Source: Roseovarius nubinhibens ISM
GTDB lineage: Bacteria > Pseudomonadota > Alphaproteobacteria > Rhodobacterales > Rhodobacteraceae
Direction: 5' to 3'
Length of the DNA: 64,000 bases
Assembly: GCF_000152625.1 (NCBI RefSeq)
Contig: NZ_CH724156.1
Location: 1,434,966 to 1,498,965 of the forward strand
Shown in pieces: positions 13,410 through 41,866 of this stretch. The position numbers and the translations under genes are program-made. The notes beneath the pieces are model-generated. The model did no database searches. It saw nothing but the letters and a program-made list of their open reading frames with translations, and was not told where the DNA came from. Numbering within the stretch: position 1 is the first letter of the stretch; every line of letters begins with the position of its first letter.

Positions 13410-14231
13410 ATGTTTCAACAAGTCAAACCCAAATCCCGATTGCAATCGGCGATCTCGATCCTCGAGCTGATCTATCACTCGGTGGTGCGCGATGTCCGCA
13501 AGGGGCATGGCAATGCCTTGATGGCGCTGGCGATCAACCTGTTTCAGGCCATTCTCTTTGTCGCGGCCTTTTACCTGATGTTCTCGCTTCTGGGGCTGCG
13601 CGGCGCGGCGCTGCGCGGGGATTTCCTGCTCTATATCATGTCGGGGATTTTCGTTTTCCTGACCCATACCAAGACTTTGGGCGCGGTGGCCGGGGCCGAA
13701 GGCCCGTCCTCGGCGATGATGAAACACGCGCCTATGAACACGGTGATCGCCATCACTTCGGCGGCGATTGGCGCGCTCTATATTCAGGTGCTGACGCTGT
13801 TTCTGGTGCTCTTTGTCTATCACGTGGGCTTTACCCCGTTCGAGATCGAACAGCCGTTCAAGGCCTTTGGCATGTTCCTGCTGGCCTGGCTCTCCGGGGT
13901 CGCCATCGGCGTGGTGCTCTATGCGATCAAGCCGTGGTTTCCCGGCTTTGTCGGCGTGTTCACCACCGTCTATCAGCGGGCCAATATGATCGCCTCGGGC
14001 AAGATGTTCGTGGCCAACACCCTGCCCGCCTATATGTTGGCAATGTTCGATTGGAACCCGCTGTTCCATTGTATCGACCAGATGCGGGGGTTTGTTTTCG
14101 TCAACTACCTGCCGCGCAATTCCTCGATCGAATACCCGCTCTACGTGACGATCGTCCTCATGATGATCGGGTTGCTGGGCGAGTTCTACACCCGTCAGCA
14201 GGCCTCGATCAGCTGGGACGCGCGCCGCTAG
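13410..14231 (+). CDS. ABC-2 type polysaccharide export permease (KpsM-like)
   Basis: This 273-residue membrane protein has about six transmembrane segments, beginning near residue 45 (INLFQAILFVAAFYLMF) and ending near LMMIGLLGEFY. The pattern and length match KpsM/Wzm-type permeases that export capsule or O-antigen. A KpsT-like ATPase partner is not in the window, so it must be encoded elsewhere or the transporter is split. ATG 13410 has GGTGAGG upstream; the frame extends to 13329 without a ribosome-binding site. It is divergent from cysQ, with a shared 128-bp regulatory gap. Confidence 0.8.
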   Translation: MFQQVKPKSRLQSAISILELIYHSVVRDVRKGHGNALMALAINLFQAILFVAAFYLMFSLLGLRGAALRGDFLLYIMSGIFVFLTHTKTLGAVAGAEGPSSAMMKHAPMNTVIAITSAAIGALYIQVLTLFLVLFVYHVGFTPFEIEQPFKAFGMFLLAWLSGVAIGVVLYAIKPWFPGFVGVFTTVYQRANMIASGKMFVANTLPAYMLAMFDWNPLFHCIDQMRGFVFVNYLPRNSSIEYPLYVTIVLMMIGLLGEFYTRQQASISWDARR

Positions 14232-21241: not shown

Positions 21242-21447
21242 GGGAAAGCCCCTTAGACTGGAAACGCTCGGTTTGGGGATGTTGTGGGCCATGGGCGCGC
21301 GCGAAGTCAATCGCGCCAAGGCCAAACCCCGGTGGTGGCGGCATATTTCCCGATGGGCGCGCCTTTGCTGCATCGCCAAGCCGGGGCTTTCCCTTGGGCC
21401 GGGGGCGGGGTATCACGCAAGGATATATGCCATTCCGGAGCCTGATG

Positions 21448-22407
21448 ATGAGCCTGCCGCCGAAACCCGCCGAGATTGCCCGCGAGGTTCTGACCATCGA
21501 GGGCGAGGCCCTTCTGGCGATGCGCGAGGCGCTGTCGGAGAGTTTTGACCGGGTGATCGAGCTGCTGCTCGATGTGCGCGGGCGGGTGATCGTGTCGGGC
21601 ATGGGCAAGTCGGGCCATATCGCCCACAAGATCGCCGCCACCATGGCCAGCACCGGCACCCCGGCGCAGATGGTACATCCCGGCGAGGCGAGCCATGGCG
21701 ATCTTGGCATGATCACCGCGCAGGATGCGGTGATTCTCATCTCCAATTCCGGCGAGACCCGCGAGCTTGCCGATATGATCGCCCATACAAGGCGGTTTTC
21801 CATTCCGCTCATCGCGATCACCAAAAAGGCCGAGAGCACGCTTGGCCAGCAGGCCGATCATGTGCTCGAACTGCCGGATGCGCCCGAGGCCTGTGGCATC
21901 GGCATGGCGCCGACCACCTCGACCACCTGCACGCTGGCGCTGGGCGATGCGCTGGCGGTGGCGCTGATGACGCAGCGCGGGTTCGAGCGCGAGAATTTCC
22001 TCGATTTCCACCCCGGCGGCACGCTTGGGGCGCAGCTTCTCAAGGTGGGGAGCGTGATGCACAAGGGCGATGCGCTGCCCATCGTGCATGAGCATAGCAG
22101 CATGGGCGAGACCTTGATCGAGATGACGGCCAAGGGGTTTGGCGTGGCGGCGGTGGTCGAGCGTGGCATTCTCACCGGGGTCATCACCGATGGCGATTTG
22201 CGGCGCAACCTCGATGGGCTCATGGAGCGCAAGGCGGGCGAGATCGCCACGCGCCACCCGCGCAGCACGCGGCCCGATATCCTGTTGACCGAGGCGCTCG
22301 GCGTGATGAACGCCAACAAGATCAGCGCGCTTTTCGTGGTGGATGCGGAGGGCCGGCTTCAGGGTCTGGTGCATATCCATGACGCGCTGCGTGCGGGCGT
22401 GGCCTAA
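21448..22407 (+). CDS. kdsD: Arabinose-5-phosphate isomerase KdsD
   Basis: KdsD converts ribulose-5-phosphate to arabinose-5-phosphate, the first step to Kdo. The protein (about 319 aa) has an N-terminal SIS domain (GMGKSGHIAHKIAATMASTGTP; HPGEASHGDLG; SNSGETREL) and two C-terminal CBS repeats. Possible starts are ATG 21445 and 21448; the second has GGAG 7 bases upstream. It lies divergent from ugd, so sugar-acid supply genes are paired here. Confidence 0.93.
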   Translation: MSLPPKPAEIAREVLTIEGEALLAMREALSESFDRVIELLLDVRGRVIVSGMGKSGHIAHKIAATMASTGTPAQMVHPGEASHGDLGMITAQDAVILISNSGETRELADMIAHTRRFSIPLIAITKKAESTLGQQADHVLELPDAPEACGIGMAPTTSTTCTLALGDALAVALMTQRGFERENFLDFHPGGTLGAQLLKVGSVMHKGDALPIVHEHSSMGETLIEMTAKGFGVAAVVERGILTGVITDGDLRRNLDGLMERKAGEIATRHPRSTRPDILLTEALGVMNANKISALFVVDAEGRLQGLVHIHDALRAGVA

Positions 22408-22487: not shown

Positions 22488-22529
22488 AAAAAAACGGTGA
22501 CGCCAGGGAGGAGGAGGGCGTCACCGTTT
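22488..22529 (-). ncRNA. CcsR/cuckoo-like sRNA hairpin 4, also the array's intrinsic terminator
   Basis: A perfect 13-bp stem (22492-22504 with 22517-22529) encloses a 12-base loop that reads CTCCTCCTCCCT on the minus strand, and a run of seven T follows on that strand (22494-22488). It is therefore both a CCUCC-loop hairpin and a strong Rho-independent terminator for transcription coming from the DUF1127 gene. In Rhodobacter sphaeroides four CcsR sRNAs with a CCUCCUCCC loop motif lie in the same position behind a DUF1127 gene. Confidence 0.8.
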
Positions 22530-22533
22530 CTGA

Positions 22534-22567
22534 ACGTTGGTTCTAAAGGGAGGAGCGAACCGAACGT
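22534..22567 (-). ncRNA. CcsR/cuckoo-like sRNA hairpin 3
   Basis: Stem ACGTT+GGTTC pairs with GAACC and AACGT with one bulged base (22562). The loop on the minus strand contains CTCCTCCCTTTA. The conserved 13-mer CTAAAGGGAGGAG (plus strand, 22543-22555) recurs 44 and 87 bases away in the other hairpins. Confidence 0.75.
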
Positions 22568-22570
22568 GAT

Positions 22571-22616
22571 CCGGAGTGGACAGTGGCTAAAGGGAGGAGA
22601 AACCACTGAGCTCCGG
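22571..22616 (-). ncRNA. CcsR/cuckoo-like sRNA hairpin 2
   Basis: Two stem blocks, CCGGAG/CTCCGG and CAGTGG/CCACTG, are separated by a small asymmetric internal loop. The 16-base terminal loop on the minus strand carries CTCCTCCCTTTAG. Stem sequences differ from hairpins 1 and 3 while the loop is conserved, which points to selection on RNA structure and on the exposed CCUCC. Confidence 0.75.
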
Positions 22617-22622
22617 TATGTT

Positions 22623-22654
22623 GATGCCCCTAAAGGGAGGAGAAACGGGGCATC
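22623..22654 (-). ncRNA. CcsR/cuckoo-like sRNA hairpin 1
   Basis: GATGCCCC and GGGGCATC form an 8-bp stem around a 16-base loop that exposes CTCCTCCCTTTA on the minus strand. It lies 9 bases after the DUF1127 stop, so it is read as part of that transcript and presumably processed from it. Confidence 0.75.
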
Positions 22655-22663
22655 TAAACCAGC

Positions 22664-22888
22664 TTAGGACTGGTAACCGTAAACCGCCTTGCGCGAGATG
22701 GCGGTGATTTCGCCGCGGCTGATGCCGAGATCAGCGAGCGAACGATCGCTCAGGCTGGCCAGCTCGTTGCGGGTCTTGTTGTATTCGCGGCGCAGGTGCA
22801 CCTTGCGGACCAGAGCGGCAAAGAAGCCGTCTTCGGCGCGTTTCGTGGCATAGCTGCGACCGTTCAGGATGTCGGATGCGAAAACCAT
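22664..22888 (-). CDS. DUF1127 small protein, CcaF1-like
   Basis: The 74-residue protein has a basic middle (RKVHLRREYNKTRNEL) and the DUF1127 signature LSDRSLADLGISRGEI near its C-terminus. In R. sphaeroides the DUF1127 protein CcaF1 is an RNA-binding factor encoded directly upstream of the CcsR sRNAs, and takes part in their maturation. The same arrangement is seen here. ATG 22888 has GAGGTAG upstream; the longer frame to 23041 includes the promoter and is not coding. Likely stress-induced. Confidence 0.85.
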   Translation of the reverse strand: MVFASDILNGRSYATKRAEDGFFAALVRKVHLRREYNKTRNELASLSDRSLADLGISRGEITAISRKAVYGYQS

Positions 22889-22950: not shown

Positions 22951-22978
22951 TAGATAAACCAATGCTGCATCTGCACAA
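22951..22978 (-). promoter_or_regulatory. Candidate promoter of the DUF1127-CcsR transcript
   Basis: On the minus strand TTGTGC (22978-22973) and TATCTA (22956-22951) are separated by 16 bases, about 60 bases before the ATG. The R. sphaeroides counterpart is transcribed by heat-shock sigma factors; this element could serve sigma-70 or an RpoH, and the sequence alone does not decide. Confidence 0.4.
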
Positions 22979-23125
22979 TCCCCGTTTGTACAATGCCGCT
23001 ATGCAGAAAATGCATAAGAGGGGCTGACATAAAAACGTCATGTTTATCAGGGCACAGAACGGCCCGCCCTTGCGCCCGGCGTCAAACCTGCCAAGTAGGG
23101 ATGAGCAATCGAGGGAGGCCCAGAG

Positions 23126-24199
23126 ATGGTGACGCGCGCGACAATCGAAGAGCAGTTGAGCCGGTTCGATCTGCCGGGGGGTGGCAATCTCGTGTCACGC
23201 GACATGATCCGGGCGTTGTCGGTCGAGGGCGGCACGGTGCGCTATGTGATCGAGGCGCCGAGCCCCGAGATCGCCCGCCAGATGGAGCCGCTGCGCGCCG
23301 CCACCGAACGCGCCATCGCGGCGCTCGAGGGGGTGGTGCATGTCTCGGCGGTGCTGACCGCCCATGGCGCGGCCCCGGCCCCGGCCAAGGCGCCGCCCAG
23401 CCTCAAGATCGGAGGTCATCCGAAACCGCAGGAGGGCAGTCTCAAGCCGGCGAGCGTCAAGTCGATCATCGCGATCGGGTCGGGCAAGGGCGGGGTCGGC
23501 AAATCGACCGTATCGTCGAACCTTGCGGTGGCCCTAGCGCGGGCGGGCAAGAAAGTGGGGCTTCTCGACGCCGATATTTACGGGCCGAGCCAGCCGCGGA
23601 TGATGGGTGTGTCGGGCCGCCCGGCGAGCCCCGATGGCAAGATCATCGAGCCGCTGCACGCGCATGGGGTGACGATGATGTCGATCGGCCTGATGCTCGA
23701 CCCGGACAAGGCGGTGGTCTGGCGGGGGCCGATGCTCATGGGGGCATTGCAGCAGATGATCAGCCAGGTGCGCTGGGGGGAATTGGATGTGCTGCTCGTC
23801 GATCTACCGCCGGGGACGGGCGATGTGCAGCTCACGCTCTGCCAGAAGGCCGAGCCCACCGGTGCGATCATCGTCTCGACGCCGCAGGATGTGGCGCTCT
23901 TGGATGCGCGCAAGGCGATGGACATGTTCCGCACGCTCAAGACGCCGATTCTCGGGATGATCGAGAATATGTCGGCCTTCCATTGCCCCGAATGCGGGCA
24001 TGAGGCGCATATTTTTGGCCATGGTGGCGTGGCGGCAGAGGCTGAGACGCTCGACCTGCCCTTCCTCGGGGCGCTGCCGATTGATCTCGACACGCGGCTG
24101 GCGGGCGACAATGGCACGCCGGTGGCGCTGGGCGACGGGCCGGTGGCCGGGGCCTATGCGGCGCTGGCGGATCGGTTGATCAAGGGCGGTCTGGTCTGA
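23126..24199 (+). CDS. mrp: Mrp/ApbC-family iron-sulfur cluster carrier ATPase
   Basis: The 357-residue protein has an N-terminal MIP18-like domain (about 1-80), a linker, and a MinD-type ATPase domain with the deviant Walker [12 protein letters not shown] (about 118-128), [16 protein letters not shown] and [11 protein letters not shown]. Cys287 and Cys290 (CPEC) are the bridging Fe-S ligands. It delivers Fe-S clusters to apoproteins in the cytoplasm. ATG 23126 has GAGGGAGG upstream. It is convergent with the lipoprotein gene, 4 bases apart. Confidence 0.93.
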
Positions 24200-41770: not shown

Positions 41771-41866
41771 CCGCGAAGCTATGATGATTCTTGGGTGGAA
41801 AGCCCATCCCGGCGGGTCTATATAAGGGGCAGGGAGGAGTTCACTTACTCAGAAAGGTGACCTCCA

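Follow-up and report, generated by a model that had tools for sequence, protein, structure and literature searches.

Layout of the locus

The window, i.e., the whole stretch of 64,000 nucleotides that we analysed, contains on its minus strand a DUF1127 gene encoding 74 aa (22664..22888; PF06568, E = 2.5e-13), the positional counterpart of ccaF1. This gene is followed on the same strand by four hairpins, numbered H1 to H4, and the stem of H1 starts 9 nt past the DUF1127 stop codon. H1 (22623..22654, minus strand; z = -4.0) has an 8-bp stem and the loop GUUUCUCCUCCCUUUA, and its stem covaries within Roseovarius. In H2 (22571..22616, minus strand; z = -4.6), an inner stem CAGUGG/CCACUG and an outer stem CCGGAG/CUCCGG carry the loop UCUCCUCCCUUU. 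H3 (22534..22567, minus strand) is the weakest of the four (z = -2.0), with 10 bp, a bulge and the loop GCUCCUCCCUUUA. H4 (22490..22531, minus strand; z = -8.1) presents the loop CUCCUCCUCCCU on a long stem and is followed by a T run, so that terminator and sRNA hairpin are combined in one structure. The divergent neighbour, an mrp/NBP35-type P-loop ATPase gene (23126..24199, plus strand; PF10609, E = 3.3e-97), lies outside the cassette and served as our syntenic anchor; a KpsF/GutQ-type SIS-CBS gene (21394-22407) is the convergent neighbour.

The whole 179-nt hairpin region folds at -71 kcal/mol, whereas shuffled versions average -39.4 (z = -9.7), and none of 200 Markov shuffles of the window yielded four CTCCTCCC inside 200 nt. 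The 13-mer CTCCTCCCTTTAG occurs three times, in H1-H3, and has no other copy in the 3,676,244-base genome. An earlier, preliminary description of this DNA was therefore correct in reporting a DUF1127 gene with four minus-strand hairpins behind it, a loop 13-mer common to three of them, and a fourth hairpin that doubles as the terminator. The 13-mer was rejected as a family marker: 12 other genomes of 296 carry it, nearly always once.

Two further CTCCTCCC sites lie on the same strand of the window, at 41839 and 47185 (minus strand); they have no hairpin-model match and are probably due to chance. A separate RNA, RF02645 Cis2_sRNA (the Ruegeria cis2 sRNA), matches at 13974-14120 of the window (minus strand) with 92.8 bits, above its gathering score. 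The genome has four DUF1127 genes, including that of the cassette, and the fetched loci of the other three (C2:683888, C2:407908 and C2:3355791) contain no match to R1, our covariance model of a single cuckoo hairpin.

Conservation and covariation of the hairpins

The closest named matches to mrp come mostly from Roseovarius. A DUF1127 match is present in 57 of 60 Roseovarius genomes, and most of the best loci of the genus have a CTCCTCC hairpin array, commonly of four copies, that begins 16-26 nt past the DUF1127 stop. Among 80 named Rhodobacteraceae loci that were fetched via mrp, 75 have an array of at least two CTCCTCC on the strand opposite mrp, and a recognisable DUF1127 frame precedes the array in 62. 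The tandem pattern as such is found in 106/120 genomes of the family, but because a reversed control also matches many genomes, we place weight on the synteny counts.

To assess pairing, we relied on alignments of orthologous loci and on an arm-swap test, in which the 3' arms of hairpins are exchanged with one another in fixed-width windows. An alignment that pools all hairpins shows strong covariation, but we rejected it as proof; since the hairpins were picked for stems of at least 8 bp, such evidence is circular. The 13 pairs of H4 are 100% paired across 18 distinct Roseovarius orthologues, and five of them are changed on both sides; 0 of 500 shuffles and no slid control come near this result. 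Of the 47 pairs that RNAalifold predicts over the whole array, 25 have compensatory changes. Over 595 hairpins, the mean energy rises from -19.4 to -10.3 kcal/mol when each hairpin's own 3' arm is replaced by that of another. Within the window, H1, H2 and H4 stand out, as their own 3' arm beats around 98% of foreign arms (for H2, 1.7% of foreign arms are as good), whereas the own arm of H3 beats 69% and is equalled by 31%. The earlier observation that pairing is maintained although no two stems are the same thus holds, with H3 not standing out in the arm-swap test. The compensatory changes at orthologous loci, which supply the covariation across relatives that had been proposed as a check, and the arm-swap test together indicate that the hairpin structure is under selection, as had been suggested.

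Relationship to known RNA families

When Rfam is applied at its gathering thresholds, no family is reported at the array locus, and no cuckoo-type family is reported in the loci of 12 relatives. The stems appear to be too variable for the curated cut-offs. Below these thresholds, two models align end to end: RF02791 CcsR1 matches H3 and H4 with 42.6 bits over 83/83 positions (E = 6.4e-9 genome-wide; gathering score 65.3), its first half aligning to H3, and RF02344 ar14 matches with 38.1 bits over 123/123 positions (gathering score 58.8). The covariance-model search proposed in the preliminary description therefore supports the relationship through complete alignments, but not through scores that reach either curated threshold. 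Three relatives with the same gene order (L031, L126 and L042) have CcsR1 scores of 86.7-106.2 bits, which exceed the gathering score. The single-hairpin model R1 finds H4 (32.9 bits, E = 3.1e-6, the best match of the genome) and weakly H1 (17.6 bits), and misses H2 and H3, because it was built on the strict loop motif CCUCCUCCC. This motif is present in H4 only; the corresponding sequences of H1-H3 are UCUCCUCCC, UCUCCUCCC and GCUCCUCCC. The second-best CcsR1 site in the genome (18.5 bits) and weak R1 matches in two other loci (L286 and L287) were dropped, as their 3'UTR contexts were unconvincing.

By the curated thresholds, then, the array is outside both narrow Rfam families, and by its anatomy it is within the broader CcsR/cuckoo/ar14 ("CIN1") kind: a short DUF1127 gene lies directly upstream on the same strand, and the tandem hairpins have variable, covarying stems. 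The assignment to the CcsR/cuckoo family had been made from the sequence at the outset and holds, in that the DUF1127 gene, the CCUCC loops, the terminator hairpin and an RpoH-like promoter (see below) all fit. A cuckoo RNA/CIN1 locus (Reinkensmeier and Giegerich 2015, cited in PMC10253847) has adjacent hairpins with CCUCCUCCC loops beside a short DUF1127 gene; the window shares the adjacent hairpins and the gene, but has the strict nine-base motif in H4 only. With ccaF1-CcsR1-4 (RSs0680a-d) of R. sphaeroides, it shares a DUF1127 gene in first position, tandem CCUCC-loop hairpins, a terminator hairpin in last position and, probably, an RpoHI/RpoHII-type promoter. Likewise, ar14/NfeR1 of S. meliloti has tandem hairpins, aSD loops and variable stems; however, NfeR1 has three hairpins and its own sigma70-type promoter, and no DUF1127 gene is mentioned in its transcript (PMC10746234).

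A module of two hairpins

The preliminary description equated the four hairpins with the four CcsR sRNAs, and this proved to be wrong. The Rfam CcsR1 model represents a single RNA of 83 nt that contains two aSD hairpins, and RSs0680a was described in a 2011 paper as two stem-loops that each bear the motif (PMC3927594). Across arrays, the distance between hairpins is 41 nt within pairs (IQR 40-43) and 67 nt between pairs (IQR 60-72), and the hairpin number is even in 77/91 arrays of at least four. Given the pairwise spacing, the even numbers and the CcsR1 model, the module is a pair of hairpins, and the window has two modules. Since one CcsR1 RNA has two hairpins, eight hairpins are expected in R. 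sphaeroides, compared with the four found here. The processed RNAs of this locus should number about two, of approximately 80-90 nt, or be a single RNA of approximately 170 nt.

The spacing within the window is 43/44/39 nt, versus a typical 41/67/41, i.e., the linker between modules is absent, which is also a difference from R. sphaeroides CcsR. In Roseovarius relatives, this linker has a small GGGAC...GTCCC hairpin. Only three other four-copy arrays that we saw have such a short middle step. The number of hairpins per locus ranges from 1 to 14 with a mode of four (111 loci); arrays close to the end of a fetched locus may have been undercounted. The cuckoo RNA family is reportedly limited to two to four hairpins. 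The largest array, that of L031 (G051, C4:691.7-692.4 kb), has 14 hairpins, including five near-identical two-hairpin modules that are around 114 bp apart, and this similarity marks it as an apparent recent expansion by whole modules.

Loop sequences and candidate targets

Nearly all of the 595 hairpins contain CUCCUCCC in the loop (592), and 519 show the complete CCUCCUCCC. Three loops of the window lack the first C of this motif, versus 13% of the hairpins of relatives. In H1-H3 this base is replaced by U, U and G, respectively, to give U/U/G-CUCCUCCCUUUAG, which distinguishes the window from R. sphaeroides CcsR, and the 3' flank is UUUAG rather than the usual UGRG. These three loops retain eight bases that pair with GGGAGGAG. 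It had been proposed that variation in this array could be informative; with respect to the number of hairpins it is not, as four is the commonest number, but the array is indeed unusual in its missing linker and in the loops of H1-H3.

We searched for genes preceded by GGGAGGAG-N4-10-ATG, and found 14 genomic sites versus 4 for the reversed pattern, which is a small number and only moderately above the control. Eleven of these sites precede real frames, while the other three start no real gene. The genes with such sites are candidate targets of the array only, as predicted by complementarity. They include pta (phosphate acetyltransferase) and genes for an acyl-CoA synthetase, an enoyl-CoA hydratase, an MttB-like (trimethylamine-methyltransferase-like) protein, the TRAP binding protein DctP (dctP), a cyclopropane fatty acid synthase and 4-hydroxybenzoate hydroxylase.

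Promoter and operator

The DUF1127 gene is preceded by a predicted RpoH-type promoter (22951..22978, minus strand), composed of TTGTGC (22978-22973), a 16-nt spacer and TATCTA (22956-22951), with a conserved TGCAGCA in between. A TAT-type -10 box follows the block TTGTGCA-NN-TGCAGCA, which is aligned in 55/60 anchored loci, and TTGT-N18-TAT occurs in 28/63 loci versus one when these are shuffled. RpoHI/RpoHII promoters of R. sphaeroides need TTG at -35, and their placement of TTG and TAT matches that seen here (PMC3441632, PMC10673084). The DUF1127 promoter is thus RpoH-like, and we predict it to be of the RpoHI/RpoHII type. We found no published report of the conserved promoter block.

Upstream of the RpoH-like boxes there is a conserved operator, TATGCATTTTCTGCATAGCGGCATTG (22991..23016, minus strand; palindrome core 23008-22994), which we predict to be a PhaR-type box. 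The sequence at this place is TATGCANNTGCTGCATAGCAGCATTG; 49/63 loci match the palindrome TGCTGCATAGCAGCA with at most two mismatches, where 0.05 are expected from shuffles. The genome has a single copy of TGCTGCATAGCAGCA with one mismatch, located between phaZ and phaC, and the copies with two mismatches include the phaC-phaP intergenic region and the cassette promoter. Boxes resembling TGCTGCANTGCAGCA, with at most four mismatches, precede phaP in 25/25 loci that show phaP. An operator common to the cassette and phaC appears to be previously undescribed. The genome has a PhaR gene (PF07879, PF05233). In P. denitrificans and R. sphaeroides, PhaR binds TGC-rich repeats (PMC10888616), and in S. 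meliloti it represses the sRNA MmgR (PMC12542648). From these observations and the TGC-rich, palindromic sequence of the box in the cassette promoter, we infer that PhaR may read the promoter of the DUF1127 gene and its array.

The phasin gene phaP itself offers a further similarity. Between phaP and phaR, ahead of the terminator (C2:2881921-2881953; L182:2040-2090), lies the hairpin GCACCG-UCCUCCUCCUCCCAAUCAAGG-CGGUGC, with the cuckoo-type loop CUCCUCCUCCC. Among the matches listed for R1, it is the next best after H4, at a weak 16.1 bits (E = 1.2). A CUCCC-loop hairpin with unrelated stems is present in almost all Roseovarius phaP 3'UTRs that we saw, and in the arm-swap test these hairpins have -13.8 kcal/mol with their own arms versus -8.5 with swapped arms. 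No report of the phaP 3'UTR hairpin was found in the open-access literature.

We consider the chances roughly even that, in roseobacters, the PHB (PhaR) regulon includes the DUF1127-cuckoo cassette, with TGCTGCATAGCAGCA shared between cassette and phaC and with phaP ending in a similar CUCCC-loop hairpin. The state of carbon storage would then set the level of aSD RNAs, which would trim acetyl-CoA/acyl-CoA enzymes. More tentatively, the conserved TGC-rich operator could serve the divergent mrp gene, or be read by a regulator other than PhaR, given that it is located in the mrp-DUF1127 intergenic region and that its ATA centre has one mismatch to the centre of the S. meliloti PhaR motif, YGCRNYGCR. 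Against this possibility, a box with at most three mismatches precedes phaC in 18/20 other Roseovarius species, with the same ATA centre in 14/20, and a second TGCA-NN-TGCAGCA element lies inside the DUF1127 promoter itself.

Proposed mechanism

It is very probable that the locus is the CcsR/cuckoo (ar14-like, 'CIN1') cassette of a marine Roseovarius, i.e., a DUF1127 gene and a 3'UTR of four hairpins whose loops are predicted to block translation. In the mechanism that we infer, a single transcript from the RpoH-like promoter would encode the RNA-binding DUF1127 protein and carry the four-hairpin 3'UTR, with the last hairpin acting as terminator. In R. sphaeroides, CcaF1 binds RNA and matures CcsR RNAs with RNase E (PMC10253847); by analogy, RNase E may be aided by the DUF1127 protein in cutting the 3'UTR free. 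The stable stems would display unpaired CUCCUCCC loops as mimics of the 16S rRNA tail, and these loops would pair with the strong Shine-Dalgarno sequence GGGAGGAG, thereby blocking the translation of a set of mRNAs. NfeR1 of S. meliloti, which has the same loops, represses ntrB by blocking its start region via three aSD loops (PMC10746234).

We regard it as unlikely that the array is instead a sponge, in which the loops, rather than pairing with chosen mRNAs, titrate either ribosome capacity in general or an RNA-binding protein, be it Hfq, a CsrA-like protein or the DUF1127 protein. Many identical tandem loops, up to 14, are indeed reminiscent of known sponges, and CcaF1 affects many RNAs. However, the C-rich loops differ from CsrA-type GGA motifs, and the exact aSD complement, together with seed-mutant data on NfeR1, favours base-pairing. 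Still less probable is a chiefly cis role without trans regulation, in which the hairpins serve the DUF1127 mRNA itself, by protecting and terminating it and by recruiting the encoded protein for autoregulation: all hairpins are in one 3'UTR with a terminator at its end, and R. sphaeroides CcaF1 alters the maturation of its own 3'UTR RNAs (PMC10253847), but a cis role leaves unexplained why 592/595 loops keep CUCCUCCC amid freely changing stems and why copy numbers reach 14, and NfeR1 uses the same loops to silence its targets in trans.

Implications

It is important to emphasize that the cassette itself, a stress cassette of alphaproteobacteria, is known, ordinary and common for its family, since the sRNA system has been described in Rhodobacter and rhizobia. 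We found no earlier report of an analysis of the modules, of the variant loops or of the operator shared with the PHB genes. The interpretation given in the preliminary description is, as a whole, partly supported. The locus corrects the unit of the system, which is a two-hairpin module and not a single hairpin, and arrays of about 2 to 14 hairpins, mostly adjoining mrp, are present in many Rhodobacteraceae. If PhaR binds the promoter, then PHB and acetyl-CoA status, besides stress, would be a testable trigger of the aSD RNAs. If the cassette does belong to the PHB regulon, the control of RNA under stress would be joined to carbon storage.
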